From Tidjanibacter sp. (GTDB lineage: Bacteria; Bacteroidota; Bacteroidia; Bacteroidales; Rikenellaceae), in NCBI GenBank assembly GCA_017466345.1, contig JAFTUI010000023.1, positions 1 through 64,000 of the forward strand: DNA of 64,000 bases. The letters are read 5' to 3'. Each line of letters begins with the position of its first letter. The first letter of the stretch is position 1. Made by a program: the position numbers and the translations under genes. Shown here piece after piece: positions 577 to 27,504 of this stretch. A model generated the notes under the pieces. The model searched no databases. It saw only the letters and a program-made list of their open reading frames with translations, and had not been told where the DNA came from.

Positions 577-2523
577 CTATCGCTGTTTCACGAATACCTC
601 TATGGCCTGATACTCTGCCATACCGAGGTTGTCGTAGAGTTTTGCGGTATTCTGGGTGCGCTCCTCAGCCCTCTGCCAAAACTCGCGTTTGTCGGCACCA
701 GGGAAGGGTACGATGTCCTTCTGCGAGAGGTGGCGGTAGATGGCGTGGCGTTTGGCGATAATCTCCTCGGGACTCAGGGGCACAGCCATATCTACCATAC
801 CCAAGTTCCACTCCTGCCAAGCACCCCTATACAGCCAGATGTGGCACTCCTTGTTCCACTCCTCGTCTTTGGTGCGCTCCACAGCCTCAAAGACCGCCTC
901 GGTGCATAGTCGGTGTGTACCGTGGGGGTCGGTCAAATCGCCCGCAACGTATATCTGGTGGGGCTTAACCTTGCGCAACAACTCGATGACAATAGCAATG
1001 TCGGCATCGGTCAGCTCGCCCTTCTTGATACCGCCCGTCTCGTAGAAGGGCAGATTGAGGAAGTGGCAGTTGGTGCGGTCGTTAAGGCCCAGCGAGCGGC
1101 AGGCGGCCTTCGCCTCGGCACGCCTAATAGCGCCCTTAATATCCAACAAAACTCGTGGTTCGGGCTGACCTTTCTGTTTGTTTTTGATAATCTCCGTAAC
1201 CTCATCGTAACGGTCGCCATAGCCCATCTCCATAGCGGTATCGATGTGTTGCAACACCACATCGTCATAGACCGCCACATTGCCCGATGTTTCGTAGGCA
1301 ACGTGCACATCGTGTCCGTGTTTGATAAGGCGGTGGAATGTGCCACCCATAGAGATAACATCATCGTCTGGGTGGGGCGAGAAGATTATAACCCTCTTGG
1401 GGAAGGGGGTGGAGCTGACGGGGCGTGTTGTGTCGTCAGCATTGGGCTTACCACCGGGCCAGCCTGTGATGGTATGTTGCAGGTCGTTGAAGACGTCAAT
1501 GTTGATTTGGTCATACGAGCCCTTCTCTTCGAGCAGTTCGCCGAGCGAGTTCTGCACATAGTCCTCGTTGGTAAGTTTGAGGATAGGTTTGCCCACTCTC
1601 TCGCAGAGCCATACCACAGCCCTACGCACACACTTAGGTGTCCAATTACACGAGCCCACCAACCAGGGAGTCTGGCGGCGTGTGAGTGTCGAGGCGGCAT
1701 TTTCGTCCGTAAAGACCGTGATATTGGGGTGTGTTTGGAGTAGCGAGGCGGGAATTTTGCTCGTAGGCTCGCCCTCAACAATGGCCTTAACAGCATTGGA
1801 TTTATCCTCGCCCCACGCCATCAGCAATATCTGCTTTGCCTTCATAACGGTACTAATGCCGAGTGTAATACCCATACGAGGGGTGTTACCATCGCCGAAG
1901 AAGAGGCTTGTGAGCACTGTGCGGGTGTTGTGCGAGAGTTTCACCATACGGGTTTTGCTATTGACATTAACATCCACATCGTTGAAGCCAACTTGTCCCT
2001 GCTCGCCCACGCCCATAACCATCAGGTCTACCTCCGAGGCTGCCTTGTCGTATGCCAAGCAGTAGGTTTTCAGACTATCCTTGTCGAGGTCGGTGCTGAT
2101 GAGGTGCACATTTTCGGGCAGGATGTCGATGTGGTCGATAAGCTCTGAGTGTATGCTGTAATTGCGGCTCTGCTGCTCTTTGGCGGTAATGGGATAGAAC
2201 TCATCGAGCGAGTATACCGACACTCGGCGGAAGCTTACCTCGCCACGCCTATTGCGTGCGGCGAGTTCGCGGTAGAGCCCCACGGGAGTACGTCCCGTAG
2301 CCAAACCGAGCACAAATGTCTTATCCTCAATACCGTAGTCATCGTTCGCACTCTGCGTGAAGTCGTTGATGGCAGCGACAATCCTATCTGCCACCTCCCT
2401 GACAGCCTCCACATCCGTAGGGAAGACCTTAGTTGGTATCTTCTCGAAGCGGTGGATGATGTCGTATGGAGTTTCGTCTTCGCGTAGGTAGTTGCTGTCC
2501 GGAAGCAAAATTTTCGTATTCAT
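577..2523 (-). CDS. NagB-like / PIG-L deacetylase fusion protein
   Basis: This 648-residue protein has an N-terminal glucosamine-6-phosphate deaminase (NagB) fold at about residues 25-290 and a C-terminal PIG-L/LmbE deacetylase domain at about 375-645. The PIG-L zinc motif is intact (SPHPDDDV, H384-D388; DPHGTHRLC further on). The NagB segment is odd: the E. coli catalytic segment NDGHIAFNE (D141, H143, E148) is here EQGQVGFND at 174-182, so all three catalytic positions are changed, although LDEF (106-109, D72 region) is kept. Such fusions are common in Bacteroidota and usually annotated as glucosamine-6-phosphate deaminase. I expect deacetylase activity on an amino sugar but doubt ordinary deaminase activity. 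It is last in the operon 6845-577, 33 bases after the GHL10-like gene. Confidence 0.85.
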   Translation of the reverse strand: MNTKILLPDSNYLREDETPYDIIHRFEKIPTKVFPTDVEAVREVADRIVAAINDFTQSANDDYGIEDKTFVLGLATGRTPVGLYRELAARNRRGEVSFRRVSVYSLDEFYPITAKEQQSRNYSIHSELIDHIDILPENVHLISTDLDKDSLKTYCLAYDKAASEVDLMVMGVGEQGQVGFNDVDVNVNSKTRMVKLSHNTRTVLTSLFFGDGNTPRMGITLGISTVMKAKQILLMAWGEDKSNAVKAIVEGEPTSKIPASLLQTHPNITVFTDENAASTLTRRQTPWLVGSCNWTPKCVRRAVVWLCERVGKPILKLTNEDYVQNSLGELLEEKGSYDQINIDVFNDLQHTITGWPGGKPNADDTTRPVSSTPFPKRVIIFSPHPDDDVISMGGTFHRLIKHGHDVHVAYETSGNVAVYDDVVLQHIDTAMEMGYGDRYDEVTEIIKNKQKGQPEPRVLLDIKGAIRRAEAKAACRSLGLNDRTNCHFLNLPFYETGGIKKGELTDADIAIVIELLRKVKPHQIYVAGDLTDPHGTHRLCTEAVFEAVERTKDEEWNKECHIWLYRGAWQEWNLGMVDMAVPLSPEEIIAKRHAIYRHLSQKDIVPFPGADKREFWQRAEERTQNTAKLYDNLGMAEYQAIEVFVKQR

Positions 2524-2556
2524 ATCTCTGAGTTTATTATAGTTGCAATGTTTTTC

Positions 2557-3867
2557 TTATTCGGCTCTCTCGATGGCGAGTCTAAGGGTGTCCCACCAAT
2601 TGTGGTTTACGATGTGGCATAGGTCGAAGAGCATCATACCGCCCGAGCAACTCTCGATAGCCTGAGTAACGGCACGTCCGAAGCGCTCCTCATCGTGCAT
2701 ATACTGCTCCACATAGATAGAGCCCACAACGGGCACCACGCCACAGGTAATCTGCTCTGCGAGTTCGGCACCGCCCTCCACACAGTACCAATACTCGCGC
2801 GAGGTGGCATCCATACCATCCTCGCCACGCATACCGAGCGCAGTCAGCTGGTCGTCCATCTCTTGTTTGGTTATGGGGGTGTAGTAGAGTCCGGTCATAT
2901 AGACATCCAAGAGGTCGGCATAGCCCGTCTTGTAGTAGTTCTCGGTTGCCCAATCGAAGTACTCTGCGGGGTTGTATTTCTCGCTTGCCCAATTCACTCC
3001 CATATAGTAGTAGGTGGGATACCACGCACCTGTATAGTCGCCGAGTATGAGGTTGGGATTGATAGCTTTGAGTCGCTCGTGAGCCTCCTCCACGAAACTC
3101 TTAATCACGTTTGCACGATACTCCAACCACTCTTTGAAATACCTCTCGGGTTTGTGCTGCCACTTGCCCTCTTCGTCCTCATACCACGTCAGGATGTCGG
3201 CGGGCTTGGGAGTCTCGGCGAGTCCTGCATAGGCTGCGAAATCGGCAAGCGAGAGGGGGCTGAAATCTGCCCAGATGTCGTTGTAGCGTACTCGGTCAAA
3301 AATCAGACCGTCAATGGTGGGATACTTACGCGCAAACTCCTCCAAGATGGATATCTGATACTCCCTCACTTCGGGGTTTGCGGGATTTACCATACCGTTG
3401 TATGTGAAGTCCATTTGGCTTACGGGCAGGAGTTGGTTGTGCCACCAGCCAATGGTCTGCCACTCTGGGTGCTCGTTGTAGATGATACCACGCTTCACGA
3501 AGTTGTGACCGCCCGCAAAGACGTTGAGCGAAGCAAAGCAGCCGAGTCCATACTTACGACAAGCAGCCTCCACCTCGGCGAGCATATCGTAGTCGAGGGG
3601 TCGCTCCACACCGTCCCACTCGCCCATATAGGGTGCGATGTCGCTCTTGTAGAGCACCTCGCCCATAATGCTTTTCACATCTGCCACCACGTCCGTAAAA
3701 CCGAGGTCTTTGATGCGAGCCATATAGTAGTCGATGCTGTCGGGCGTAGAAAGACGCTCGAAGTTAGCCTCGCAGTCGAGCCACATATAGAGCCTTTTGT
3801 CGGGGGTTTTGCTGCTGCACCCTGCGAATACCACGAGCGCGAGGGCAATGTAGAGTAGTTTTTTCAT
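2557..3867 (-). CDS. GHL10-like (COG1649-type) glycoside hydrolase lipoprotein
   Basis: The signal peptide ends in VFAGC, a lipobox. The rest is a TIM-barrel-like protein of the family-10-like/alpha-amylase-like group: RLYMWLDCEANFERL near the start, then GFTDVVADVKSIMGEVLY, NPANPEVREYQ, and DGLIFDRVRYND, whose acidic residues sit where COG1649 hydrolases have catalytic acids. It is paralogous to the 13805-15283 gene (IDAAANFEDY, DGIILDRCRYDD). E. coli DigH of the GHL10 group cuts peptide-free peptidoglycan strands; whether this one does so is unknown. It acts outside the cytoplasm and is probably on the cell surface or outer membrane. It lies between the NAGPA-like gene (43 bases upstream) and NagB/PIG-L. 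Substrate not recognised. Confidence 0.75.
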   Translation of the reverse strand: MKKLLYIALALVVFAGCSSKTPDKRLYMWLDCEANFERLSTPDSIDYYMARIKDLGFTDVVADVKSIMGEVLYKSDIAPYMGEWDGVERPLDYDMLAEVEAACRKYGLGCFASLNVFAGGHNFVKRGIIYNEHPEWQTIGWWHNQLLPVSQMDFTYNGMVNPANPEVREYQISILEEFARKYPTIDGLIFDRVRYNDIWADFSPLSLADFAAYAGLAETPKPADILTWYEDEEGKWQHKPERYFKEWLEYRANVIKSFVEEAHERLKAINPNLILGDYTGAWYPTYYYMGVNWASEKYNPAEYFDWATENYYKTGYADLLDVYMTGLYYTPITKQEMDDQLTALGMRGEDGMDATSREYWYCVEGGAELAEQITCGVVPVVGSIYVEQYMHDEERFGRAVTQAIESCSGGMMLFDLCHIVNHNWWDTLRLAIERAE

Positions 3868-3909
3868 AGTGTCTTTTTTGTGTGTCGTGTATGTATTGTA
3901 TATTTTCTT

Positions 3910-4959
3910 TTATTCCTGCATCGAAATCACTATGGCAGTAGGCACTCGCCTTTCGGAGCCATCGGAGGGGCTGTTGAGAGGTGCGCCATCCTTGCCGACC
4001 ATCACCGAAGAGCCACCGCCATCTAAGTTTACAGCATACACTGCACCCAACCCTTTCAGCAAATCTGCCACTTCGGGGAGTGTGTAGCCATAACTACCGT
4101 TCATCTTGCGCCCATCGCACACAAAGAGGATTATCTTGCCGTCCTCGGTGTAGCCTATGGCTGTGCGTGGCTGACAGGAGAGCGCGGCGGTGCCACCACT
4201 GTGGAGCACCTCTTTGTAGTAGTTGCTCTCGGCGACATTCCTGCCATTATTGAGCAACATAGGACCGCCACCGATAGCCTCCTCGGGCTCCCAGAGTGTG
4301 CCACCCGAAGAACTGTGGGGTGTGCTTGTGAAGACACCCACCTTCTCGTTGTTGCCCTTTGCTGAGGAGAATGAGTAGGGGCGGTTGTCGTCATCGGGAC
4401 AGCAATATACCCAAGTAGCCTCCATACGACCGTCAGCGTGCACACCGAAGGCTGCCCTTATGGGGCAGGCGGTGTAACTCTTACCCTCGTATGTGGGCCA
4501 AGTGTATTGTGCGGCTATGCTTTTTACCTCGCCACCCGATATGAGTAGGCTGAGCGACTTGCCATCCCAAAAGTAACCGCCATTTGTTGCCAATAGTGGA
4601 GTGCCCCCCTCAAAGGAGGCGAATATGTTGGAAGGTGTATCGTCATTTTCGACATACACCGCGTTGAATTTCAGTTTTGGGTTTTTCTGAGTGTCCACAA
4701 TGGCATAATAGCCCGAGCAGTAGTCCTCAGAATCCTCCTCGTAGTAGTTCTTGAAGTAGTAGACCTTCATACCCTCGGGATAACCCTCTTGTGCCACAAG
4801 TTCGTTGCGTCCCTCGGGCTCAGGCTCAGGCTCAGGCTCGGGTTTAGGCTCGGGTTGCTCGGGTGTGTTGGGTTGATTGTCCTCGGGAGCAGGATTGCAA
4901 GCCTCCCCGAATGACACACATAGGCTCAAAGCCGCTACTATTAGGAAGATACGTTTCAT
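3910..4959 (-). CDS. NAGPA-like phosphodiester glycosidase (DUF2233), exported
   Basis: This 349-residue protein has a signal peptide and a possible, weak lipobox (FGEAC). A Pro-Glu-rich linker with PEPEPE repeats (about 35-50) follows. The rest matches the phosphodiester glycosidase / NAGPA domain: LLATNGGYFWDG, RTAIGYTEDGKIILFVCDGR, and AVNLDGGGSSVMV near the C terminus, the last being the family hallmark. Family members cut a sugar-1-phosphodiester, as human uncovering enzyme does with GlcNAc-1-P. In this locus a GlcNAc- or similar sugar-phosphodiester decoration of a glycan, or a teichoic-acid-like polymer, is a fair guess. It heads the compact run to NagB/PIG-L. A repeat (4987-5100) separates it from the BACON lipoprotein upstream. 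Confidence 0.8.
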   Translation of the reverse strand: MKRIFLIVAALSLCVSFGEACNPAPEDNQPNTPEQPEPKPEPEPEPEPEGRNELVAQEGYPEGMKVYYFKNYYEEDSEDYCSGYYAIVDTQKNPKLKFNAVYVENDDTPSNIFASFEGGTPLLATNGGYFWDGKSLSLLISGGEVKSIAAQYTWPTYEGKSYTACPIRAAFGVHADGRMEATWVYCCPDDDNRPYSFSSAKGNNEKVGVFTSTPHSSSGGTLWEPEEAIGGGPMLLNNGRNVAESNYYKEVLHSGGTAALSCQPRTAIGYTEDGKIILFVCDGRKMNGSYGYTLPEVADLLKGLGAVYAVNLDGGGSSVMVGKDGAPLNSPSDGSERRVPTAIVISMQE

Positions 4960-4986
4960 TGTTTGGTTGAAAGTTGATTATATTTG

Positions 4987-5100
4987 AGTTACAGGGGTTG
5001 CAGGGGTTGCAGGGAATTCCTATATGCCCTATACGCCCTATACGCCCTATAAGCCTTAGGACTATTGACGTTAGACGTTAGACGTTAGACGTTAGACGTT
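4987..5100 (+). repeat. Composite 9-bp/7-bp repeat, copy 2
   Basis: GTTGCAGGG-like 9-mers (from about 4987) change into CTATACGCC/CTATAAGCC 9-mers. The core TTAGGACTATTGAC is at 5056-5069, followed by four exact GTTAGAC heptads plus GTT up to 5100, the longest heptad array of the six copies. The repeat lies in the gap between the BACON lipoprotein and the NAGPA-like gene and is probably transcribed antisense to its arrangement. The rest of 4960-5183 shows no gene. Confidence 0.85.
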
Positions 5101-5183: not shown

Positions 5184-6845
5184 TTACAATGCAATGAAGT
5201 AAGCTGCCAAGTTAGCACCAGTGTTGTCAAAGCAGTAGAAGTTCAAACCACCCTCAACAGCCTCCAAGCAAACGTCAGTGGTCCAGCCACCCAAGACAGC
5301 AACAGGCTCATCCTCGCCCTCTACCTCTTTGTAGATAGCAGGACTGAACGAGTACTCAGCGATGCGATTGATAGCAGTACCCTCTACACTGTAAACGTAT
5401 GCGTAAGAGCCACCATACATACCTGCACCCGAAACAGCTGCATACGATACACCATCAACAGCAAGCATCTCAATAGCATTTGCAAGAGTGTTGGAGTTTG
5501 CGTCACCATTAGCATCGAATACAACGGGAACGATAGGAGTACAAGCCTTAGTTGCACCGTCAACGAGGTTGATCTCATTGCCCGAGTAGCACGACATCAT
5601 AACAGCACCGTCAGCAACGGTAGTGCCAAGAGGAGCAAATGCGGGGAAGTTGTTGGGAGCATCAATCCAGTAGTTACCAATCCAGCAACCAGTGAAACCA
5701 GTTACATTGAAATTCTGCCTTGCACCTGCTACACCATCAACGATATCCCAAGCGTTTACAGCATTCGAACCATAGGAATAACCCTCAACGGGAACCCATA
5801 CAGTTGCATCGTCAGTAATATTACCACGAACGCCAAGGTTAGCACCCATATTACGAGGAGGATTGTCATAAGGCTCGTTTACATTGAAAGCTTTAACAGC
5901 CTCGGTAGCACCAGGTGCCAAATAGTAAACAGAGAAGTAAACCTCCCAACTCCATACTTTACCACCATTGCGAACACGGTTACACATAACGAGGTTACCA
6001 GCGTCATCAGTAGTAACATAGTAGGGTACGAAGCCACCAGTTACGAGCTCGCCCTCAACAGCACCAGTCTCTTTGTTTACGAGTTTGGGCATTGTGCCAT
6101 CACCTGCACAAACAACAAGTTTGCCATCCCAAAGAGCAATCGAAACAACGCCACCACAATCAGCATCACCACAAGCGGGAGTAATAGTATTTACCTGAGG
6201 AACAATAGTGGTCGAGTCAACTTTGAAAATAGCACCAGACTGAGAAATAGTTACATCATATACAAAGCCACCCTCTGCCTCAACGGTAATAGTTGCAACG
6301 CGGTCAGCACCGGTGGTGTTCTTAGCAACCTCAACAACAACCTCGGTGGTGGTGAGAGCCTTGGTACCCTCAGCAACAACAGCCCAATCAGAGTCCGAAG
6401 TAACGGTGAACTCAATGTTGTGGTTTACGGGGAATTTAACCTCGCCACCCTCGTAACCGATGGTGAGAGCCAAAGTCTCCTCCTCGCCGATTTTCACCTC
6501 GTCTACCTGCGCCTGGTTAACAGCGATCTCTACGTTCTTGTCGCCAGCGGTGATGGTAACTTTACCAGCACGAGCATCGTAAGTGGTGTTCTCAGTAACC
6601 TTGATAGTCAGCTCAATAGCGGCACCTGCAACGCCCGAAGCGGGCTCAACGTTGATCCACTCTGCATCGTCAGCAGCGGTCCAAGCAGCGTTGGTAGTGA
6701 AAGCAACAACCTTGGTAGCTGCAGCAGTCGAAAGGTTCAATGTTGCATTAGCTGCGTCATCGAGAGCAAGTGTTGTCTCGGGCACAGGCTCCTCGCAAGC
6801 GAAAAGCATTGCTGCAACAGCAAAAATTGCGAAAAATTTTTTCAT
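5184..6845 (-). CDS. BACON-domain surface lipoprotein
   Basis: The signal peptide ends in AMLFAC and is followed directly by acidic residues (EEPVPE), resembling a Bacteroidota surface-export signal. Two BACON-type repeats lie at about residues 30-120 (AAWTAADDAEWINVEPASG...VNQAQ) and 125-210 (SDSDWAVVAEG...ISQSG). BACON domains are Ig-like and often bind carbohydrate or mucin. The C-terminal 340 residues resemble the C-terminal half of the 15312-17126 lipoprotein (both have DDAGNL(V/L)(M/I)CN and a blocked-propeller-like pattern), so the two are probably functional counterparts in glycan binding. It is first in the left operon, with its own promoter at 6937-6944. The enzyme activity, if any, is unknown. 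Confidence 0.75.
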   Translation of the reverse strand: MKKFFAIFAVAAMLFACEEPVPETTLALDDAANATLNLSTAAATKVVAFTTNAAWTAADDAEWINVEPASGVAGAAIELTIKVTENTTYDARAGKVTITAGDKNVEIAVNQAQVDEVKIGEEETLALTIGYEGGEVKFPVNHNIEFTVTSDSDWAVVAEGTKALTTTEVVVEVAKNTTGADRVATITVEAEGGFVYDVTISQSGAIFKVDSTTIVPQVNTITPACGDADCGGVVSIALWDGKLVVCAGDGTMPKLVNKETGAVEGELVTGGFVPYYVTTDDAGNLVMCNRVRNGGKVWSWEVYFSVYYLAPGATEAVKAFNVNEPYDNPPRNMGANLGVRGNITDDATVWVPVEGYSYGSNAVNAWDIVDGVAGARQNFNVTGFTGCWIGNYWIDAPNNFPAFAPLGTTVADGAVMMSCYSGNEINLVDGATKACTPIVPVVFDANGDANSNTLANAIEMLAVDGVSYAAVSGAGMYGGSYAYVYSVEGTAINRIAEYSFSPAIYKEVEGEDEPVAVLGGWTTDVCLEAVEGGLNFYCFDNTGANLAAYFIAL

Positions 6846-7125: not shown

Positions 7126-7911
7126 TTATTTATTGCGAGATTTTTCCACTCGGCGTACCACCCACGCCCCAAGTTCGTAGAGCAGCCAAATGGGCAGAGC
7201 AACAAGCAGAAGAGTGAACGGATCGCCCGAAGGAGTGATAACTGCCGACACCACAAGCGCAACAACAACAGCATAGCGGCGGACTGCAATCATAGAGCGG
7301 TGGTGGAGCACCCCAAGTCGGGCAAGCAGTGCACAAACAACGGGTATCTCGAAAAGCGCACCCATAACCGCAGTCATACCAAGCAGGGTGGAGATATACG
7401 ATTCGAGAGCAATCATATTGGGCACCGCACTACTAACCTGGTAGCCCGCCAAAAAGCGAAACGTGAAGGGAAAGATGACAAAGTAGTTGAGTGCGCATCC
7501 CAAAAGAAACATCACATAGCCCCCAACAACATAGCGGCGGGTATGGCGGCGTTCGTGGTCGTAGAGTGCAGGAGAAATAAACTCAAAGAGCGAGTAGATA
7601 ACATAGGGCAACGCAAGCAGCAAACCCACATAGAGCGCAACTCGCAGGTGGGTTGTGAATTGTGCCGCAAGCCCCGTATTGATGAGTTGGACAATATCGC
7701 CACCCTCGGCAGGCAGTGGTGCCAAGCCGAGGCGTTCCATAAGGCGGTAGGTCAGAAAGTCGCCCTGAGAGGGTGCCAGCACCACATCGAAGAGCAGCCC
7801 CTTAAAGCCAAAGGCCACCGCAGTAAACACCACCACGACAGCCCCAATGCGCAACAAATTCCCCTTTAACTCTTCGAGGTGCGCCCAAAAACTCTTCGCA
7901 TTGTCGGACAT
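7126..7911 (-). CDS. tatC: Sec-independent protein translocase TatC
   Basis: The protein is 261 residues, the usual TatC length, with six hydrophobic segments. It opens with MSDNAKSFWAHLEELKGNLLRIG, the typical HLEEL start, and contains the conserved FLFG-like loop region (FISPALYDHERR) and periplasmic-loop pattern before TM5-TM6. TatC is the inner-membrane receptor for folded proteins bearing twin-arginine signals. It follows tatA by 32 bases in the same operon. One Tat substrate is visible in this window, the DUF4434 protein at 24794-25888. No tatB is present, as is usual in Bacteroidota. Confidence 0.95.
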   Translation of the reverse strand: MSDNAKSFWAHLEELKGNLLRIGAVVVVFTAVAFGFKGLLFDVVLAPSQGDFLTYRLMERLGLAPLPAEGGDIVQLINTGLAAQFTTHLRVALYVGLLLALPYVIYSLFEFISPALYDHERRHTRRYVVGGYVMFLLGCALNYFVIFPFTFRFLAGYQVSSAVPNMIALESYISTLLGMTAVMGALFEIPVVCALLARLGVLHHRSMIAVRRYAVVVALVVSAVITPSGDPFTLLLVALPIWLLYELGAWVVRRVEKSRNK

Positions 7912-7943
7912 CTTCTCTCTCGGAAAGAGGTTACCACACAGCG

Positions 7944-8447: not shown

Positions 8448-8475
8448 TGTGGCTATAAACGAAATCCAAACCATT

Positions 8476-12342: not shown

Positions 12343-12366
12343 AATTGTCACTCGCAAAACAGTTTC

Positions 12367-15283: not shown

Positions 15284-15311
15284 ACTTTTCTTTGATTTGT
15301 CAATCTTACAA

Positions 15312-18896: not shown

Positions 18897-21800
18897 TTAG
18901 AATGTGATCGAGATACCACCCATAACGGTCCTCTGCTGTGGGTAGTAACCATTGTTTACACCAGGCGACTCGGGGTCGATACCCTCTGGCAAACCGCTCA
19001 AAGTAAAGAGGTTTGCACCCTCAACATAGAGCCTTACGTTGCCAATACCCATACGCTCGCAAGCCTGCTTCGAGAGGGTGTAGCCCAACTGCATAGATTT
19101 CACACGCATATACTTACCATCCCTAAACCAGAAGGTCGAAGCCAAACCATTATTGTTGGTAGGAGAGTTCAGAGTCAGACGGGGATAGGTACCATTTGGA
19201 TTGTCAGGACGCCAAGCATTCTCTGCCAAGTAGACGGGAGTATTACCACCCTCCTTGAAGGTCTCGGTAAAGATGGTGTTATCATCATTACCGTTGTAGT
19301 AAGTACCGGTAAGCGATATATCGAACAACGCAGCACCGGTAATCAGTGTCGAGAAGTCGAAGTTGCGCCACGACATCGAGATATTCAGACCAGCAGTGAT
19401 TTTGGGTCGGTTGCTACGACCGGTAAATGCCTTATCCTCGTTGTCCACTTTACCATTACCCGAGAGGTCTACATACTTAATATCGCCAACGCGAGGACGC
19501 TGACCAAAGGGCCAAGGCGAGTTGTCAATATCCTCCTCGCTCTGGTAGAGTCCGTCAGCTACCCAACCGAGCAATGCGCCCAACTCCTGACCTGCTAAGC
19601 ACTGGTAATCGGGGGTATCTGCCTTGTCGGTATACTTAATCCAACGCGAGTATGCGTAGGTGAGGTTGAGAGCTACGTTATAGTGCAGAGCATTCTTGCC
19701 CTCGCCAATTTTGTTCGCGTGAGTAATAACAGCCTCAATACCGCGGCTATCCTGCTCGCCAAAGTTCTCATATACGGGGTAGTAGCCACCCATCGAAGGG
19801 GGATATGCGCCACCCATATAGGTCAGCATATCGTAGGTGTGGGTGTAGAACAAGTCCAACTCCATACCCAGCAAGCCAGCCCACAACGAGAAGTCCATAC
19901 CCACGTTGAAGGAGCGTGTACGAGCCCAAGTGAGGTTGAGGTTTGCGATGGAGGTAACAGCCAGAGTGTTGTAGCGGTTGCCGCCCAGATAGACGGGCGT
20001 ACCCTGACCATACTGGTTCAAGAAACCATAGGGGCTTACGTTATCAACACCTACTTCGCCTGCCGAGAGCCTAAATTTCAAGTTAGAGAGCCACTCGTCA
20101 GTGCCCATCATAAATTCCTCCTCGCTCACGCGCCAACCGAGCGACACTGCGGGGAACAGACCCCAGCGTTTGCCATCTACGTTACCCGCAAACTTGTAAC
20201 TACCATCGTAGCGTGCGGAGGCTTCGAGCATATACTTGTCGGCATAGGCGTAGCGCAAGCGACCAACGAAGCCCATCTGGCGAGTAAGTTCGCTATAACC
20301 GCTAATAGGGCTATCCGAGGGAGTTGCCTGACCAAGTTCGGGAAGTTCGATAAAGGGCAGGTCTTTTCCATAGGCTGCCAACTGGCGACCCCTATACTGC
20401 CTCATCTCGCCCACAACCATTACATCCAAGTCGTGGTCCTCGCCAATTTTGGTAACATACTGCACCTGAGCATTACCCAGCAGCGAAGTGCCGCTATAAA
20501 TACCCTCAGCAAGAGTGTTGTAGGTATTACCACGCACATCCACCATCTTGGTATAGTTCAACTTAGTGGAGCCATCGGTAGGCAGCGAAGCGTGCATCAC
20601 ATAGAAGGGAGTAGCAAGGATTTTGCTAATCGAGTAGCCGTGGTCATACGAACCTGCAACACGAGCGGTCAGACCTTTCAGAGCAGACGACTTATACTCC
20701 AACTCGATGTTGGTCTGCACCTCGTAGCCATCGTTGCGATTGTAACCACTCTGCTCCACAGCAGCGATAGGCGACACATAGTTTACATTATAGGTAACAG
20801 CCGTAGGAAGTCCCTGATAGGTCTTGGGCAGATAGGGGTGCATAGCCACCGTCTGCAAAGCCACATTCATCCAAGTGCCATCGCTCGAAGTACCACCCGA
20901 AGAGAAGCCGGGGTTGTTTTTCTTATCGGTACCACCCGCAACAGTCAGTTTCAGCGTCAAGTTATCGGTCACCTGCGAGTTGATATTTGCACGGAGGTTA
21001 TATTTCTCGTAAGTGTATGCCGAGATGTTACCGTGCTGATTGAGGTAGCCTATCGAAGCAAAGTATTTCACTTTTTCGTTACCGCCCGAGGTGGAGAGGT
21101 TGTGTTTGGTGTTCACACCCACGCCAAACACCTCGTCAACCCAGTTCGTATTGCCCCAACCATCCGAGTCATCACCATTGGTCATCAGAGCCACCTGCTC
21201 GGCAGTGAAGAGGGGGGTATTACCATCCATCTCACGAGCCTTGTTGTAGTACCAAGCAAACTGCTCGGCATTGAGGAACTCGGGGAAGTTAGCATTCATC
21301 GACACACCAACCGAGCCTGTGTAGTTCAACTCTGTCTTACCCTCCTTACCGCTCTTGGTTGTAACGATAATCACACCACCGGCACTATTAAGACCATAGA
21401 CCGAAGCCGCAGCAGCATCTTTCAGTACCGAGATGCTTGCAATATCGTTGGGGTTGATGTCGTCCAACTTACGAGGCACGCCATCGACAATGTAGGTCAC
21501 ACCATAGTAGGAGCCACGCACCGTAAGCGATGCGCCATCCATACCAGGCTCACCAGACTCCTGAACGGAGGCAATACCTGCAATACGACCACCAAGCATA
21601 CTCGACACGTTGGTAGTAGGTGCCTTCTGCAACTCATCGCCATCAATGGAGGAGATGGAGGCGGTAAGGCTCTCCTTGCGCTGCACGCCATAGCCCACAA
21701 CGACCACATCTTCGAGCACATCCGCCTCGGTCTGCATCACTACGTCAATGAAGCTACGACCGGCAACAACCTCCGTGTGGTCCTTCATACCGAGATACTG

Positions 21801-22040
21801 GAAGACAAGTTTAGGATTTTTCACATCGGCAGGAATAGTCAAATGGTAGCTACCCAAGTAGTCGGTGGAGTTGCCGATGGTGGTTCCATCTACCACAACC
21901 GTAGCACCAATGACCGGGTCGCCTGCCTCATCTTTCACAACACCCCTGACGTGCATCTGCGCCATCAGCGAAGTTGCAGTAAGCAGCATCAACGACAGCA
22001 TCGTCAATCTACTTACAAATGATTTGGTAAAAAATTTCAT
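18897..22040 (-). CDS. SusC/RagA TonB-dependent transporter
   Basis: This 1047-residue protein has a signal peptide, a carboxypeptidase-like CarbopepD_reg domain (about 28-110, VRGVVKDEAGDPVIGATVVV), the SusC motif VVVVGYGVQRKESLTASIS, and a plug with SVLKDAAAASVYGLNSAGGVIIVTTK. A 22-strand barrel ends in an aromatic residue (ISITF). It imports the bound oligosaccharide into the periplasm with TonB-ExbBD energy. No anti-sigma-interacting N-terminal extension is seen, so regulation probably rests on the ROK protein instead of an ECF sigma pair. Confidence 0.96.
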   Translation of the reverse strand: MKFFTKSFVSRLTMLSLMLLTATSLMAQMHVRGVVKDEAGDPVIGATVVVDGTTIGNSTDYLGSYHLTIPADVKNPKLVFQYLGMKDHTEVVAGRSFIDVVMQTEADVLEDVVVVGYGVQRKESLTASISSIDGDELQKAPTTNVSSMLGGRIAGIASVQESGEPGMDGASLTVRGSYYGVTYIVDGVPRKLDDINPNDIASISVLKDAAAASVYGLNSAGGVIIVTTKSGKEGKTELNYTGSVGVSMNANFPEFLNAEQFAWYYNKAREMDGNTPLFTAEQVALMTNGDDSDGWGNTNWVDEVFGVGVNTKHNLSTSGGNEKVKYFASIGYLNQHGNISAYTYEKYNLRANINSQVTDNLTLKLTVAGGTDKKNNPGFSSGGTSSDGTWMNVALQTVAMHPYLPKTYQGLPTAVTYNVNYVSPIAAVEQSGYNRNDGYEVQTNIELEYKSSALKGLTARVAGSYDHGYSISKILATPFYVMHASLPTDGSTKLNYTKMVDVRGNTYNTLAEGIYSGTSLLGNAQVQYVTKIGEDHDLDVMVVGEMRQYRGRQLAAYGKDLPFIELPELGQATPSDSPISGYSELTRQMGFVGRLRYAYADKYMLEASARYDGSYKFAGNVDGKRWGLFPAVSLGWRVSEEEFMMGTDEWLSNLKFRLSAGEVGVDNVSPYGFLNQYGQGTPVYLGGNRYNTLAVTSIANLNLTWARTRSFNVGMDFSLWAGLLGMELDLFYTHTYDMLTYMGGAYPPSMGGYYPVYENFGEQDSRGIEAVITHANKIGEGKNALHYNVALNLTYAYSRWIKYTDKADTPDYQCLAGQELGALLGWVADGLYQSEEDIDNSPWPFGQRPRVGDIKYVDLSGNGKVDNEDKAFTGRSNRPKITAGLNISMSWRNFDFSTLITGAALFDISLTGTYYNGNDDNTIFTETFKEGGNTPVYLAENAWRPDNPNGTYPRLTLNSPTNNNGLASTFWFRDGKYMRVKSMQLGYTLSKQACERMGIGNVRLYVEGANLFTLSGLPEGIDPESPGVNNGYYPQQRTVMGGISITF

Positions 22041-22124: not shown

Positions 22125-23306
22125 CTATTTCGAGAGGATACCCTCAATCATCTCGGAAGCCTCGATGAGCATACGGGGAACGTGGAAGGGACCTTTGAAG
22201 ATGTTGCCCTTGGCAGGCTGTGCCACGCTACCGTCACGATGCAGGTAGCCATACCACTCGCCCTGCTCCCTATCCTTCAAGTGTGCGTATGCCCACTCGT
22301 GAGCCATACGGAACCTCTCCAAGTAGCTCTCATCACCCGTAGCCTCGTAGCAGTAGAGCGAAGCGATGATAGCCTCGCACTGGGGCCACCAGAACTTCAT
22401 ATCCTGCGAATAGTCCTGTGGTGGGAAGCCCTTGCAGTCGCGGAAGTTGATGATACCTCCGAACTCCTCGTCCCAGCCCCACGACCAAGCCCAATTGTAG
22501 ATCTTCAAGCCGATGCGGGTGAGTCTTTCGTCCCAGCCCCTACGTTTTGCCTCGGCAAGGATGAACCAAGCAGTCTCGATGCAGTGACCGGGGTTGATGG
22601 TACGACCGGCGCAGGTGTCTATCAGTTCGCCCTCGGGTCCCACAAGTTCCAGCACGGTCTTATACTCCTCGTTCATCAGATACTTCTCTATCTCGTTGAT
22701 AGACTGGTCAATCTGCTCGTCAAGTTCGGGAGCATCCACAACCTCTTTCAGCACAGCTGCCACATTGATGAGAATCATAGTGATGGAGTGTCCCCTACCC
22801 TGCACGGTAGTCTTAGGCTCCAAGAAGCCGGGGGTGGAGAGCATACGTTTCATACTCCTAAACACCTCCAAAGCCTTCTCGGCATAACTCCTATCGCCCG
22901 TAGCCTTTGCATACTCCGCCATAGCGATTGCTGCAAAGCTCTCCGAGAACACATAGCGGCGTTTCTGCACAGGAGCACCCTCGGCAGTTACGGTAAAGAA
23001 CATATGACCATCGGTGTCAATGCAGTGTTTCTCTATGAAATCGATGGCACTCTTAGAGGCTTCGAGCCACTCAGGGCGTTTTTCGATGCGGTTGTAGGCG
23101 GCGGCAGCAGTCCAGCCCCAGCGACCCTGGAACCACACAGATTTGGTGGTGTCCATAAGCGTTCCGTCCCTATCTACGCAGGTGTAGATACCGCCATTTA
23201 CCCTATCGACACCGTTCTTCATCCAGAAGGGCATCACATCCGAGCACAACTCCTGGCGATACTGCTCTGCGCACTCCTTCAAGTATTGTTTGTTATTGTC
23301 TGTCAT
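22125..23306 (-). CDS. AGE-family N-acylglucosamine 2-epimerase
   Basis: The start is taken at ATG 23306 (MTDNNKQYL), 20 bases after the MFS stop; upstream codons would overlap the MFS gene. The 393-residue length fits the AGE/cellobiose-epimerase family. Motifs: GGIYTCVDRDGTL, WFQGRWGWT, the histidine motif INPGHCIETAW and the C-terminal KGPFHVPRML, both with catalytic His. It probably interconverts GlcNAc and ManNAc or another 2-acylamino sugar in the cytoplasm. In sialic-acid loci of Bacteroidota such an epimerase sits beside an MFS carrier and SusC/D, as here, but no sialate lyase is in this window. Confidence 0.88.
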   Translation of the reverse strand: MTDNNKQYLKECAEQYRQELCSDVMPFWMKNGVDRVNGGIYTCVDRDGTLMDTTKSVWFQGRWGWTAAAAYNRIEKRPEWLEASKSAIDFIEKHCIDTDGHMFFTVTAEGAPVQKRRYVFSESFAAIAMAEYAKATGDRSYAEKALEVFRSMKRMLSTPGFLEPKTTVQGRGHSITMILINVAAVLKEVVDAPELDEQIDQSINEIEKYLMNEEYKTVLELVGPEGELIDTCAGRTINPGHCIETAWFILAEAKRRGWDERLTRIGLKIYNWAWSWGWDEEFGGIINFRDCKGFPPQDYSQDMKFWWPQCEAIIASLYCYEATGDESYLERFRMAHEWAYAHLKDREQGEWYGYLHRDGSVAQPAKGNIFKGPFHVPRMLIEASEMIEGILSK

Positions 23307-23325
23307 AGTTGTCAGCATATATTGT

Positions 23326-24768
23326 TTAGTGTTTTTTCTTCCTATCTTGGCTATTCCAATACTCCTCAATCTCCTCCAACGAGCGACCCGTAGTCTCGGG
23401 CACCAGTCGCCACATAATAAGTATATAAGGTATACACATCAGTGCGAAGATGAAGAATGTTCCCGATTGGCTCCAACCGAGCAGTACGGGAGTGAGTTGA
23501 CCTATGAGGTAGGTACCAATCCAAAGAGCAAAGCCTGCAATACTCATAGCCCTACCACGCACGCTGTTGGGATACATCTCACTCAGCAGTACAAAGACGA
23601 TAGCCGAAATGGAGATGGCACAGCAGAAGACGTATGCCAAGAAGAAGGTAAGCATAAAGCCGTTGCCAAGTCCCAGCAATGCGCCCCATTGGAAGTACAC
23701 AGCGATACATACAAGGCACAATATCATACCCGACACGCCCCAATAGATGAGTTGTTTTCGTCCCACCTTATCGATGATGAAGACTGCCAAGATGGTGGTA
23801 ACCATATTGACCACGCCCACTAGCACAGTGGAGAACATTGGGTTGTCGAAGCCCGCCTCGGAGAAAATCTTGGGACCATAGTAGAGCACAGCATTAACGC
23901 CCATAAACTGTCCCAAAATAGCAATGGCACTACCGATGAGCACAGCCTTGAAGATGCCAGGTTTGAGAATATCGCGCCAGCTACCCTTCTTCTCGCCACC
24001 CATCGACTCCTCTGTGGTGGCAATCTCTGCCTTAACCTCCTCTTCGGTGCGGTAAATCCTGCCATAGACACGAGCAGCCTCGGAGAGTTTCTTATTAACA
24101 ACCAACCACTTGGGACTCTCGGGAATGAAGAATATAATCACAAAGAAGAGCAGCGCAGGCAGGGTTTCGCTACCCAGCATACCGCGCCAAGCCTCCGAGT
24201 TGAACATCCTTTGCCACAGAGTGAGTTCGTTTGCCGAGGCAACCAATTCGGGATTGATACCCGAGTCGATAACCCAGTTTGCCAAATATGCAAGCAGAAA
24301 GCCCACCGTAACTGCCAGCTGGTAGAGCGACACAAGCGTTCCGCGCACCTTTGCAGGCGACACCTCCGAAATGTAGATAGGCGACACGATGGATACAATA
24401 CCAATACCCACGCCGCCAATGATGCGGTATGCCACCAGCCAATCGAAGTTGCCACATACGGCACAACCCGCAGCAGAGATAGTAAACAATGCTGCCGCAA
24501 TGAGCATTGTAAGTTTACGACCAAGTTTGTCGCTCATAGCACCTGCCACTGCCACACCGCAGATGGAGCCTATCAGAGCACAGCCAACATACCAACCCTC
24601 ACGCATATCCGAGAGGGCAAATTGGCTTTTGACCATCTCGGTAGTACCCGAGATTACAGCCGTATCGTAGCCGAAGAGTATGCCGCCCAATGCCGCAACA
24701 ATGGTCATAAAGACGACATAACCCATATTCATACTATTGTTCATACTTTTATTCATACTCTTATTCAT
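23326..24768 (-). CDS. Sugar-porter MFS transporter
   Basis: Twelve membrane segments and the sugar-porter signatures are present: DKLGRKLTM, SPIYISEVSPAKVRGTLVS, PESPKWLV and VPETTGRSLEEIEEYW. It should carry a monosaccharide across the inner membrane with protons. The N terminus is odd: MNKS MNKS MNNS MNMG comes from a 12-bp tandem repeat (24732-24768) that offers four in-frame ATGs, so start choice is uncertain and repeat number could change. The gene lies between the DUF4434 protein and the AGE epimerase, which suggests an N-acetylhexosamine as cargo. Confidence 0.9.
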   Translation of the reverse strand: MNKSMNKSMNNSMNMGYVVFMTIVAALGGILFGYDTAVISGTTEMVKSQFALSDMREGWYVGCALIGSICGVAVAGAMSDKLGRKLTMLIAAALFTISAAGCAVCGNFDWLVAYRIIGGVGIGIVSIVSPIYISEVSPAKVRGTLVSLYQLAVTVGFLLAYLANWVIDSGINPELVASANELTLWQRMFNSEAWRGMLGSETLPALLFFVIIFFIPESPKWLVVNKKLSEAARVYGRIYRTEEEVKAEIATTEESMGGEKKGSWRDILKPGIFKAVLIGSAIAILGQFMGVNAVLYYGPKIFSEAGFDNPMFSTVLVGVVNMVTTILAVFIIDKVGRKQLIYWGVSGMILCLVCIAVYFQWGALLGLGNGFMLTFFLAYVFCCAISISAIVFVLLSEMYPNSVRGRAMSIAGFALWIGTYLIGQLTPVLLGWSQSGTFFIFALMCIPYILIMWRLVPETTGRSLEEIEEYWNSQDRKKKH

Positions 24769-24793
24769 TGTACTTGCCTTAGAACTCCAATCC

Positions 24794-25888
24794 TTACTTT
24801 ATCTTGAAGTACTCTTTGTAGCGGTTGTAGAGGTGCCCTGCTTGGAGATAGGATGATTGGGGCGAAAGGAAGTGTGAGAACTCAAAGGTAATCGCCTTGT
24901 CGTAGCCTGCACGCTTGGCTGCTTCGAGTTTCATACGCAGTTTGTCGAACTTGATGGGCAAGAATTTGATGGGCATATCCCTGTCGAAGGTCTCGGCATT
25001 GGTCCAGCACTTCATACCATAGCGGTCGGCAAGTTTTTTGTTTACCTCAAAGAAGGCATCGAGTTCGTGGTAGTCGATGTGACCGTCTTGGAATGCGCAA
25101 GCGTCCACAACATCGTGGATACCATCGAAAATCTCGTTCCACTCCCTTTCGTGCTCTGCCACCGACACAGCGTTCTCGTTTGTGAGTTTGTTGGTACCCA
25201 TAATAGCCTTTTTGCCATCAATCCAAGGAGAGATGAAGGTAGGCAGACCACCCGACACATCCTTACACTGCTTACCCATTGCGTGGAAAGCACCTATGGC
25301 ACCTTTGGTCTGACGGCTAATCTCGCCACTTATGTACCAGCCACCAAAACTCTCGTAGTGACCATACCTCTGCCATACCTCGTCAATGACATATTTGTTG
25401 TCCTCAATCTCCCAACTCAAATCGCCCGTATCCCAATAACGTCCCGAGTCGTAGAGACCAAAGTAGAACTTCATACCATATTTTTGAGCCAAACGCAAAA
25501 ACATATCCACCAAATCCACCGAAGGCATATAGCAGCCCTTGCCGAGCAGATATTTCGAGGGGTAGGTGATAAATTTGCGATAGCCCGAGCGAATCATAAT
25601 CACGGTGTCAATACCGATAGCCTTCATATTGGCAAAGTCGGCGTCCCACTCCTTCTCGCCCCAGTTCTGGTGGGGAATATCGTGAGATATTTCATCGAGG
25701 AAAGTACCCGTAATGGGAAGACCTGCGGCAGGGGGCACAATAAGTCCGCCCTCCGACTCCTTCCACATAGGCGAAGAGAGCATCTCGTCCACCCTCTCGG
25801 CACCCTGCACCAGCTCGTGTGGCACAATAGCCGCAGCACCTAATGCGGCTGTGGTTTTCAGAAAATCGCGTCTTGTAAATTCTTTCAT
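24794..25888 (-). CDS. Tat-exported DUF4434-like TIM-barrel protein
   Basis: From ATG 25888 the protein is 364 residues. It begins MKEFTRRDFLKTTAALGAAA, a clear twin-arginine signal (RRDFLK, hydrophobic stretch, AxA region). The mature part has PITGTFLDEISHDIPHQNW, GIDTVIMIRSGYRKFITYP, KFYFGLYDSGRYWD and GGWYISGEIS, a pattern of DUF4434 proteins, which are predicted glycoside-hydrolase-like barrels. Activity is not established. It is the first gene of the main operon after the promoter at 26024. Tat export suggests it folds, perhaps with a cofactor, in the cytoplasm. The tatA-tatC operon lies 17 kb away inside the same locus. Confidence 0.8.
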   Translation of the reverse strand: MKEFTRRDFLKTTAALGAAAIVPHELVQGAERVDEMLSSPMWKESEGGLIVPPAAGLPITGTFLDEISHDIPHQNWGEKEWDADFANMKAIGIDTVIMIRSGYRKFITYPSKYLLGKGCYMPSVDLVDMFLRLAQKYGMKFYFGLYDSGRYWDTGDLSWEIEDNKYVIDEVWQRYGHYESFGGWYISGEISRQTKGAIGAFHAMGKQCKDVSGGLPTFISPWIDGKKAIMGTNKLTNENAVSVAEHEREWNEIFDGIHDVVDACAFQDGHIDYHELDAFFEVNKKLADRYGMKCWTNAETFDRDMPIKFLPIKFDKLRMKLEAAKRAGYDKAITFEFSHFLSPQSSYLQAGHLYNRYKEYFKIK

Positions 25889-26023
25889 TGGTTTCTTTTG
25901 CTTAGCAGTTATTATCTCTTTCTTCAACTTATTTTTCCCGCAAATCCATCTCACACACACCCTTTTAGGGTGAGGCAAGACAAGGGTGCATTACGACACA
26001 ATTTCGCACAATAATACACAATA

Positions 26024-26031
26024 CAAAAATA
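26024..26031 (-). promoter_or_regulatory. Promoter -7 box of the main glycan operon
   Basis: CAAAAATA on the plus strand reads TATTTTTG on the minus strand. It would drive the nine-gene operon from the DUF4434 gene to the NagX-like gene, with a leader of about 130 bases. No other good box is seen between the operon genes. Confidence 0.55.
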
Positions 26032-26141
26032 TAATTTATCCGTTAATTAAACAAAGAATAAATTGACAAAACGATTAATTTATTTTTATTTCGCACCTTA
26101 TCAAAACAATGTATTAATTTACAAACACTTAACAACAACTT

Positions 26142-26166
26142 AACAATCTATAATTCATAAATTGTT
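26142..26166. promoter_or_regulatory. Candidate operator palindrome for the ROK regulator
   Basis: A 25-bp imperfect palindrome starts AACAAT and ends ATTGTT, with 10 of 12 pairs matching around base 26154. It lies between the two divergent promoters (26024-26031 minus, 26211-26218 plus) in a 390-bp AT-rich gap. No gene is seen in that gap. Confidence 0.4.
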
Positions 26167-26210
26167 TTATAAATAAACCAAACCAATTAGCAAATAATAA
26201 AGAAATTGTT

Positions 26211-26218
26211 TAATTTTG
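26211..26218 (+). promoter_or_regulatory. Promoter -7 box of the ROK regulator gene
   Basis: TAATTTTG matches TAnnTTTG and lies 62 bases before the ROK ATG at 26281. The -33 region is weak. Confidence 0.55.
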
Positions 26219-26280
26219 TGGGCAGAAACAGCCAAAACTACCAATTGGCTAACATTTACCCCTAAACACCTTGTTTTACT

Positions 26281-27504
26281 ATGCTAAACCACAATCTATT
26301 GCACTACGAAGTTCCCACCACAGAGGCTGAGATTATCAAGGATGCCATACTGCGCCACTGCATCTACGAGGGCAATCAGATGATACCTCAAATGGCTGCT
26401 GCGCTCGGTTATAGCGTTCCGACCGTTGCCAAATATGTAGGCGAGTTGCTGAATGAAAAATTTTTCATAGAGTGCGGCAAAATGGACTCTCATAGGGGGC
26501 GCAAGCCCATCATCTATGGCGTAAATCCTTCGGCTTGCTACTTTGTGGGCGTGGATATTGCCCGTTTTGCCCTCAACATTGGGCTTATGAACATTGTGGG
26601 CGAGATGGTCTTTGAGAGCACCATAGACGACTTCCATTTCGAGAACACACCTGCCACTCTCGACAAGGTGCATCAGTGCATAATGGAGTTTTTGACACAG
26701 TCGGGCGTGGATGTCGAGAGGGTTGGATTGGTAAATATAAACATCTCTGGGCGAGTGAATTCCGACACCGGCGAGAGTTACAGCATATTCAACTTTGAGG
26801 AGAATGACGAGCCCTTAGCCACCATACTGAGCGAGAAGATTGGGCTGCCGGTGCGCATCGAGAACGACTCTCGTGCGATGACCTTTGGCGACCTCTCGAT
26901 GGGCAATGCTCGTGGCTATCGCAACGCTCTTTTCGTCAATGCAAGTTGGGGTTTGGGCTTGGGGATTATTGTGGGTGGCGAGCTCTACTACGGACGTCAC
27001 GGATATTCGGGCGAAATAGGGCATATCAACGTCTACGACAACGAGATAATGTGTCACTGCGGCAAGAAAGGGTGTTTGGAAACCGAGGTGTCGGGCTTTG
27101 CCATCCACCGCAAACTCCTTGAACGCATACGTCAGGGGCAGACCTCGGTGCTCTCGCCTCGCGTGGCAAGCGGACAGCCCATCTCCACACGCGACATTGT
27201 CCGCGCTGCAACCAACAACGAAGATCCGCTGTGTATAGAGCTGATAGAGCAGACTGGTGCCGAACTTGGACGCCAGCTCGCCAACCTGATAAACATCTTC
27301 AACCCCGAGGCTGTGATTGTGGGTGGTGTGTTGGCGCTGGCAGATGAGTATTTTGTCAACCCCATACGCTCGGCAATTCGCAAGTACTCGCTCAAACTGA
27401 TGTGTAAGGATGTGGAGGTTGTGGTGTCTGCCAACCCTCTGAAAGCCGGAATGATAGGTGCGTGTATGATTGCCCGCCAGACCTTCTTCCCCAAGAGTCG
27501 TTAG
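26281..27504 (+). CDS. ROK-family transcriptional regulator (NagC/Mlc-like)
   Basis: The 407-residue protein has an N-terminal winged helix (about 15-75, AEIIKDAILRHCIYEGNQM...VPTVAKYVGELLNEKFF) and a ROK sugar-binding domain. Seen are IENDSRAMTFGDL, WGLGLGIIVGGELYYGRHGYSGEIGHI and the zinc motif CHCGKKGCLETE. The kinase phosphate motif DxGxT is replaced (VDIARFAL), as expected for a regulator and not a kinase. It is divergent from the main operon across a shared AT-rich region with a candidate operator, so it probably represses the operon until an amino sugar or its phosphate binds. Confidence 0.92.
   Translation: MLNHNLLHYEVPTTEAEIIKDAILRHCIYEGNQMIPQMAAALGYSVPTVAKYVGELLNEKFFIECGKMDSHRGRKPIIYGVNPSACYFVGVDIARFALNIGLMNIVGEMVFESTIDDFHFENTPATLDKVHQCIMEFLTQSGVDVERVGLVNINISGRVNSDTGESYSIFNFEENDEPLATILSEKIGLPVRIENDSRAMTFGDLSMGNARGYRNALFVNASWGLGLGIIVGGELYYGRHGYSGEIGHINVYDNEIMCHCGKKGCLETEVSGFAIHRKLLERIRQGQTSVLSPRVASGQPISTRDIVRAATNNEDPLCIELIEQTGAELGRQLANLINIFNPEAVIVGGVLALADEYFVNPIRSAIRKYSLKLMCKDVEVVVSANPLKAGMIGACMIARQTFFPKSR

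Follow-up and report, generated by a model that had tools for sequence, protein, structure and literature searches.

A Tidjanibacter polysaccharide utilization locus with a predicted phosphodiester-bearing, O-acylated amino-sugar substrate

We analyzed a 64,000-nucleotide stretch of DNA from Tidjanibacter sp. (positions 1 to 64,000 of contig JAFTUI010000023.1, assembly GCA_017466345.1; hereafter the window), which carries a large glycan locus from position 577 onwards. An earlier note, made from the sequence alone, had described this locus as a possible new amino-sugar/phospho-glycan system. The genome is a 1.82-Mb assembly of 30 contigs and is 95.6% complete. Open reading frame (ORF) and Pfam scans extended the locus past position 27504 to 28680, and the SusC/SusD pair, the co-directional glycan enzymes and the regulator identify it as a polysaccharide utilization locus (PUL). 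With moderate confidence, we predict that its substrate is a phosphodiester-bearing, O-acylated amino-sugar (N-acetylhexosamine, HexNAc) glycan, most likely a bacterial envelope polysaccharide.

Nine co-directional minus-strand genes form a first group, in the order DUF4434-MFS-AGE-SusC-SusD-DUF5018-GHL10b-phosphoesterase-DUF5009 (MFS, major facilitator superfamily transporter; AGE, N-acylglucosamine 2-epimerase). The intergenic gaps are at most 84 nt, and the small overlaps are due to start codons called too early; read from the translations, the true starts of GHL10b and DUF4434 are probably near 15283 (MKFNKT) and 25888 (MKEFTRRDFLK). A second minus-strand group consists of the BACON/DUF5018-like, NAGPA-like, GHL10a and NagB/PIG-L genes, with gaps of 224, 42 and 33 nt. 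Between the two groups lie tatA and tatC (minus) and GH20 (plus), while the ROK gene (plus) is divergent from DUF4434 and is followed by a CE2/GDSL esterase gene. GH20 and the CE2 esterase, about 17 kb apart, bracket the operon, and the latter belongs to the locus system; it adjoins ROK in four related loci (L001-L004; loci and genomes are numbered L and G below). The Bacteroidetes-type promoter consensus was searched for in the 350 nt upstream of 18 genes and matched two, DUF4434 and BACON, both of which are the first genes of their groups. AT-rich blocks between DUF4434 and ROK are conserved in the window and L001-L006, and no ROK operator distinguishable from the promoter was found in this region of these sequences.

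Every family named in the earlier note was present over its Pfam cut-off, including its "NagX-like" protein, which is DUF5009, and the DUF4434 protein with its TAT_signal; however, the list omitted the two DUF5018/BACON proteins, tatA, tatC and the CE2/GDSL esterase. The remark that classical glycosidases are few was also borne out, GH20 being the only one among the 20 ORFs covered by the Pfam scan (577-33311).

The enzymes assigned to the glycan backbone are GHL10a and GHL10b, both over the GHL10 Pfam cut-off and, as the note had proposed, paralogues (31% identity over 430 aligned positions). Since PDB sequence searches with the two GHL10 proteins and the phosphoesterase found nothing within the limits applied, folds were compared. 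The GHL10 fold was checked for GHL10b, whose nearest folds were Cwp19 and PgaB, and the fold of the phosphoesterase resembled GpdQ. Cwp19 (the GHL10 protein of C. difficile) and the C-terminal domain of PgaB share about 15% identity with the locus proteins, which differ from both in carrying the DUF4985 extension. DigH is likewise a GHL10 protein. In published work, Cwp19 is described as wall-active (PMC5765458; PMC6016235) and DigH as hydrolyzing peptide-free wall glycan (PMC12288456). The NAGPA-like protein has the C-terminal NLDGGGS part in common with the NAGPA/DUF2233 phosphodiester glycosidases (PDB 3ohg, 6pkg and others), whereas its N-terminal part lies outside the profile match. As 18 of the 20 NAGPA genes found near DUF4985 in the genus survey described below begin at profile position 58-62, proteins of this type look like a separate subfamily with a different N-terminal half. 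The NAGPA protein of the complete genome G433 differs from PDB 3ohg itself.

Relatives were collected with DUF4434 as the query. The best 80 of 586 confirmed loci were taken, each reaching at most 10 kb to either side of DUF4434, so that absences there are uninformative. The six best named relatives were Tidjanibacter metagenome-assembled genomes (MAGs) recovered from water deer, yak and goat (rectum, colon or caecum), and the window thus probably comes from a related gut bacterium. At tblastn E <= 1e-10, the 80 loci contained MFS in 77 cases, AGE in 49, SusC in 49 (a count that includes weak matches), ROK in 38, SusD in 31 and DUF5018 in 24. A GHL10 relative lay in reach in 29 loci, together with SusC (23), SusD (21), DUF5018 (20), ROK (18), AGE (16), the phosphoesterase (10), GH20 (7), the CE2 esterase (7), NAGPA (5) and DUF5009 (3). 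Compact operons in L075 and L078 hold SusC/D, DUF5018, GHL10b, the phosphoesterase, DUF4434 and MFS. The isolate labels of L078 (nzgw135) and L079 (Gw_SlDig) suggest, as labels only, groundwater and a sludge digester, respectively. ADP_ribosyl_GH, YceG, M24, SLBB, APH and another SusD type also occur near DUF4434 in relatives and were taken as unrelated neighbors.

In even samples, DUF4434 (query at E <= 1e-30) proved rare outside a single genus: it turned up in 3 of 149 genomes for the order (counting that of the window) and in 12 of 251 for the family to which G059 belongs, but in 50 of 158 for the genus that includes G393. We take this last genus to be Bacteroides, because two members have a DUF4434 protein that matches PDB 4h41 (BT_0435 of B. 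thetaiotaomicron) at 100% identity over 322 residues. A survey of the genus (157 genomes for DUF4985, MetallophosC and NAGPA; 158 for DUF4434) gave 69 DUF4985 genes in 29 genomes and 33 GHL10-DUF4985 clusters, 28 of which had two or more DUF4985 genes. MetallophosC was found within 10 kb of 26 clusters and NAGPA within 10 kb of 19, 24 clusters had DUF4434 or a paralogue of it no more than 16 kb away, and 13 clusters held all three; moreover, DUF4434 was present in 27 of the 29 genomes with DUF4985. Fisher tests on genomes, uncorrected for species relatedness and with the weakest rows dropped, gave 2e-14 for DUF4434, 5e-10 for MetallophosC and 4e-7 for NAGPA. Among 14 control genomes, DUF4985 and MetallophosC occurred in one (Bacteroides ihuae) and NAGPA in six. 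These genes thus recur together in other genomes far beyond chance.

Gene fusions join the predicted activities. GHL10-DUF4985 and a phosphoesterase share one polypeptide in L046 (by BLAST), L071 and L097 (by Pfam; L097 comes from G403), and DUF4985 and MetallophosC lie side by side in equal-length frames of 896-908 codons in G059, G222, G403, G411, G512 and G522. A SASA esterase is fused to GHL10 in L103 and to NAGPA in L104, and L009 (by Pfam), L014, L031 and L054 encode GH20 and the CE2 esterase as a single polypeptide; several kinds of esterase, as genes or as domains, are found repeatedly in relatives. The operon of L079 has the order SusD-DUF5018-GHL10b-X-320 aa-GHL10a-FAD oxidoreductase-DUF4434-MFS-DUF4434, in which X is a fusion of a glycerophosphodiesterase (GDPD) with GDSL, and no calcineurin-type gene matched in the available stretch of this locus. 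Among the 150 GDPD matches listed in the genus survey, at least 6 lay within 17 kb of DUF4434, against about 0.65 expected for a random position in a genome assumed to measure 4.8 Mb. Two Alistipes loci with DUF4434-MFS-AGE likewise have GDPD joined to DUF4855 near DUF4434 (L038:19450-20811 and L043:17796-19571), which hints at a function of DUF4855 (BT0442 type). In L109:14657-16132, GDPD is joined to a 3-keto-disaccharide hydrolase domain, and the gene adjoins AGE-MFS-DUF4434. The fusions link the predicted removal of backbone, phosphoester and O-acyl groups.

That phosphoester chemistry genuinely belongs to the system is supported by the repeated co-location, the GHL10-phosphoesterase fusion, the GDPD in the operon of a relative and the GpdQ-like fold. 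If the locus acts on a phosphodiester-bearing, O-acylated HexNAc glycan as we predict, the GHL10 proteins would cleave the HexNAc backbone, either on the cell surface or within the periplasm, the esterase would strip O-acyl groups, and the phosphoesterase and the NAGPA-like protein would open phosphodiesters, the latter at N-acetylglucosamine (GlcNAc)-1-phosphate. GH20 and DUF4434 would trim the glycan in the periplasm, and DUF5009 may re-acetylate glucosamine using cytoplasmic acetyl-CoA; MFS would import GlcNAc and N-acetylmannosamine (ManNAc), AGE would convert ManNAc to GlcNAc, and NagB would supply fructose-6-phosphate. ROK would repress the genes until an amino sugar, or its phosphate, builds up.

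No sialidase was seen among the 20 ORFs scanned, and the genome-wide search, which covered the sialidase family PF13088, gave 0 matches (5 of the 14 control genomes had one). The single nanA-model match in the genome (114 bits, cut-off 382) is dapA (296.6 bits, cut-off 206, with the NCBIfam dapA model), in agreement with the lack of a lyase stated in the earlier note, although at 95.6% completeness neither absence is proof. The transporter fell far below the sialate-type (NanT) model (TIGR00891, 48 bits, cut-off 553). Given the PF13088 and nanA results, sialic-acid catabolism was set aside as the main role in this genome. The presence of AGE while neither PF13088 nor nanA was found suggests that ManNAc derives from the polymer itself, provided that the genome truly has no sialidase and lyase; together with the compact versions in L075, L078 and L079, it favors bacterial envelope material.

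Several observations weigh against a phosphodiester-bearing envelope glycan. At the position of Cwp19 Asp196 (the second Asp of the beta-4 motif; located by sequence, without superposition), the 22 aligned GHL10 proteins have Arg (19) or Tyr (3) and no acidic residue, which makes GHL10 catalysis uncertain; the DigH analogy of the earlier note accordingly extends no further than fold and family. A phosphodiester is unproved because GpdQ-like folds also include phosphomonoesterases and cyclic-nucleotide esterases, and the NAGPA-like protein aligns only to positions 59-168 of the 169-position profile, roughly its last two thirds. The absence of peptidoglycan-amidase and MurNAc (N-acetylmuramic acid)-processing families among the 20 ORFs argues against peptidoglycan proper. 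In the genus survey, 23 of the 50 genomes with DUF4434 had no DUF4985, MetallophosC lay within 12 kb of DUF4985 for 31 of 94 genes and NAGPA for 20 of 118, and the DUF4434-MFS-AGE core of G393 pairs with GH89, GH3, GH109 and DUF4855 instead; hence this core is not tied to the GHL10, phosphoesterase and NAGPA enzymes. Finally, sialidase-type and GH20 genes adjoin the MFS/AGE end in G403 and G393, which points to host glycans.

These last neighbors are the reason why we keep a host glycan as the main rival, albeit an unlikely one: the locus would import partly trimmed complex N-glycans or mucin O-glycans, with the phosphoesterase and the NAGPA-like protein dealing with GlcNAc-1-phospho-6-mannose on lysosomal glycoproteins, or with comparably rare groups. 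In G403, the MFS/AGE end also has a GH2-family gene. The sialidase-type gene of G403 (L098:12381-13902) is in two ORFs, which match both ends of the intact G393 gene. According to passages of the papers concerned, BT0451-BT0461 is counted as an N-glycan PUL (PMC7531118, after Briliute 2019), BT0456, BT0459 and BT0460 are N-glycan GH20 enzymes (PMC10154615), the SusC protein BT_0439 of a sister PUL was found in cultures with galacto-oligosaccharides (GOS) and human milk oligosaccharides (PMC5238430), and the ROK protein BT0433 is predicted in silico as NanR, responding to sialic acid and N-acetylglucosamine (PMC3878776). Against this explanation, the genome has neither a PF13088 match nor a nanA-type gene other than dapA, no GH18, GH85, GH92, GH2 or endoglycosidase was detected among the 20 ORFs, and the compact operons, one with a label suggesting groundwater, make it less likely that the substrate comes from hosts alone.

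A substrate from outside the cell wall, such as the phosphoglycan capsule or O-antigen of another bacterium with repeats of HexNAc-1-phosphate, seems improbable to us. AGE, the NAGPA-like protein and the phosphoesterase would suit ManNAc-1-phosphate or GlcNAc-1-phosphate polymers, and relatives have several kinds of esterase, but a purely phosphate-linked polymer offers no obvious bond for two GHL10 proteins, and direct evidence is lacking. Least probable is the scavenging of plain GlcNAc or wall fragments, in which sugar monophosphates or nucleotides would be the substrates of the phosphoesterase, and the role of the NAGPA-like protein would be a different one: the folds nearest to GHL10b, the wall activity of Cwp19 and DigH, and the general amino-sugar genes NagB/PIG-L and ROK agree with it, but it leaves the GHL10-phosphoesterase and SASA-NAGPA fusions and the GDPD of L079 unexplained.

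The amino-sugar PUL and the phosphoester chemistry proposed in the earlier note are upheld, the former also in agreement with the NanR prediction for BT0433 (PMC3878776), while the substrate is unproven. A more specific version, in which the locus is dedicated to the teichoic-acid linkage region and the Gram-positive wall glycan, is a tentative possibility that we rate as rather doubtful. The linkage unit contains GlcNAc-alpha-1-phosphate-6-MurNAc and ManNAc-GlcNAc. The NAGPA-like protein would open the former and AGE would process the ManNAc of the latter; the GDPD/GpdQ-like phosphoesterase would serve for glycerol-phosphate, the GHL10 pair for peptide-free wall glycan, the esterases for O-acetyl or D-alanyl esters and DUF5009 for de-N-acetylated glucosamine. 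If true, this would define a new class of PUL nutrient, with gut Bacteroidales feeding on dead Gram-positive walls. More generally, a wall-polymer substrate would make bacterial necromass a nutrient for gut Bacteroidales and provide candidate functions for DUF4434, DUF4985, DUF5018, MetallophosC and the locus-type NAGPA.

The remaining genes concern binding, uptake, export and regulation (Table 1). The DUF5018 and BACON/DUF5018-like proteins are paralogues (30% over 339) and probable surface glycan-binding proteins. Two of the eight matches to the SusD family PF07980 in the window genome (G000:C19:111384-112064 and G000:C27:10549-11229) have identical scores, which may mean that part of a contig is present twice in the MAG. 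The epimerase scored far higher against PDB AGE chains (8bry, 6f04, 2gz6, 1fp3) than against cellobiose epimerases; its best NCBIfam model, NF052547, reached 344 bits, under the cut-off of 600. Cellobiose epimerase and mannose isomerase were ruled out, as AGE/RnBP chains score much higher. For ROK, the Mlc and NagC models were best, both below their cut-offs. Of the 93 ORFs of close relatives, 84 of which are distinct, 91 share the twin-arginine motif of DUF4434, and the siting of tatA and tatC in a locus that exports this Tat (twin-arginine translocation) substrate may be functional or due to chance. A second DUF4434 paralogue with a twin-arginine start, 51-55% identical to that of the window, lies in the same locus in four relatives (L007:12670-13761, L079:12623-13738, L098:9343-10416, L107:16917-17984), and the genome of Bacteroides oleiciplenus (contig NZ_JH992943.1) has two similar DUF4434 loci (L010 and L016) with about 25 kb between them. 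A PF12831 FAD-dependent oxidoreductase lies near DUF4434 in other Bacteroidales (L108:1752-3629, L042:8152-9870, L079:8098-9981); its two ORF clusters occur in 13 and 7 of the 80 loci, and it is not among the window ORFs scanned.

Table 1 Genes and other features of the locus in the window
Feature	Position	Strand	Evidence
NagB + PIG-L fusion, glucosamine-6-phosphate deaminase-like	577..2523	-	PF01182, PF02585; NF002557 843.5 bits, cut-off 384
GHL10a: GHL10 + DUF4985, predicted lipoprotein glycoside hydrolase	2557..3867	-	PF02638, PF16373
NAGPA-like phosphodiester glycosidase	3910..4959	-	PF09992 118 bits; PDB relatives including NAGPA entries
BACON + C-terminal DUF5018-like	5184..6845	-	PF13004 over, PF16410 below cut-off; promoter pattern upstream
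TatC	7126..7911	-	Pfam; sole TatC match in genome
TatA/B/E-type protein, 68 aa	7944..8150	-	PF02416 60.8 bits
GH20 beta-hexosaminidase + CHB_HEX_C	8449..10839	+	PF00728 385 bits; F5/8-type domains below cut-off
DUF5009 membrane protein, NagX/HGSNAT-like (function inferred)	10912..12357	-	PF16401 215 bits
Calcineurin-like phosphoesterase (MetallophosN-Metallophos-MetallophosC)	12367..13803	-	Pfam over cut-off
GHL10b: GHL10 + DUF4985, predicted lipoprotein glycoside hydrolase	13805..15364	-	Pfam GHL10 over cut-off
DUF5018 protein	15312..17126	-	PF16410 275 bits
SusD	17166..18842	-	PF07980 170 bits
SusC TonB-dependent transporter	18897..22040	-	PF07715; TIGR04056 889 bits
AGE, N-acylglucosamine 2-epimerase type	22125..23369	-	PF07221
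Sugar-porter MFS transporter	23326..24768	-	PF00083 380 bits; TIGR00879 over cut-off
DUF4434, Tat-exported	24794..25978	-	PF14488, PF10518 (TAT_signal); PDB 4h41 E 7e-196
Divergent promoter region, DUF4434 group versus ROK	25979..26280	.	TTTG-N-TAnnTTTG starts 77 nt before called DUF4434 start
ROK regulator, NagC/Mlc/NanR type	26281..27504	+	PF00480; residues 1-88 precede ROK match
CE2/GDSL esterase	27577..28680	-	PF17996, PF13472

Among the literature matches listed (titles and the starts of abstracts), there was no characterized PUL with GHL10, NAGPA or MetallophosC, and no two of GHL10, DUF4985, DUF4434, DUF5018 and DUF5009 were named together, which, in mostly open-access literature, is weak evidence of novelty. 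Nor are the GHL10, NAGPA and phosphoesterase proteins of such a locus characterized in the passages of the papers cited here. In the strict sense, the "new system" of the earlier note does not stand, because the locus is related to BT0446-BT0454 of B. thetaiotaomicron, with a widely shared gene set most of which recurs across Bacteroidales. The note had also named a homologous locus acting on a defined glycan as grounds for refutation; the N-glycan assignment provides this in part, although the sialidase, GH2 and additional GH20 enzymes on which that assignment rests are absent from the window.

The Bacteroidales sialic-acid (nan) loci share AGE, MFS, SusC/D, GH20 and ROK with the window locus, which differs from them in that PF13088 and nanA were not found and in that its MFS falls outside the sialate-symporter models. 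The complete genome G433 (L102-L104) has almost all of these genes together in a single operon, with SusC and SusD at 51% and 49% identity; its AGE, 37% identical to that of the window, is also of the AGE type, its GHL10a is fused to a SASA domain, and a FAD-oxidoreductase-type gene, 70% identical to L108:1752-3629 (PF12831), precedes DUF4434. Also among the closest systems is the BT0446-BT0454-type PUL, which combines SusC/D and DUF5018 with paired GHL10-DUF4985, MetallophosN/C, DUF5009, AGE and MFS, all of which the window has. Passages of PMC10434189 annotate BT0446-49 as DUF5009, a family 10 glycoside hydrolase, a calcineurin-like phosphoesterase with a C-terminal domain and a second family 10 glycoside hydrolase, and BT0451-54 as including SusD, a TonB receptor and a sugar porter MFS. 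The BT0453-BT0449 and BT0439-BT0443 operons have been described as gut-induced by unknown substrates. The window was compared with BT0446-BT0454 (together with BT0433 NanR and BT0435-BT0443) through annotations and relatives rather than BT sequences, its DUF4434 being very close to PDB 4h41. Unlike BT0446-BT0454, it has two gene groups, no sialidase or GH2 neighbors, and a CE2 esterase and GH20 flanking the operon. As B. thetaiotaomicron is a model PUL organism, the comparison, which names a recurring core and the fusions linking its activities, yields a testable prediction for this orphan family: a substrate with a HexNAc backbone, a phosphodiester and an O-acyl ester.

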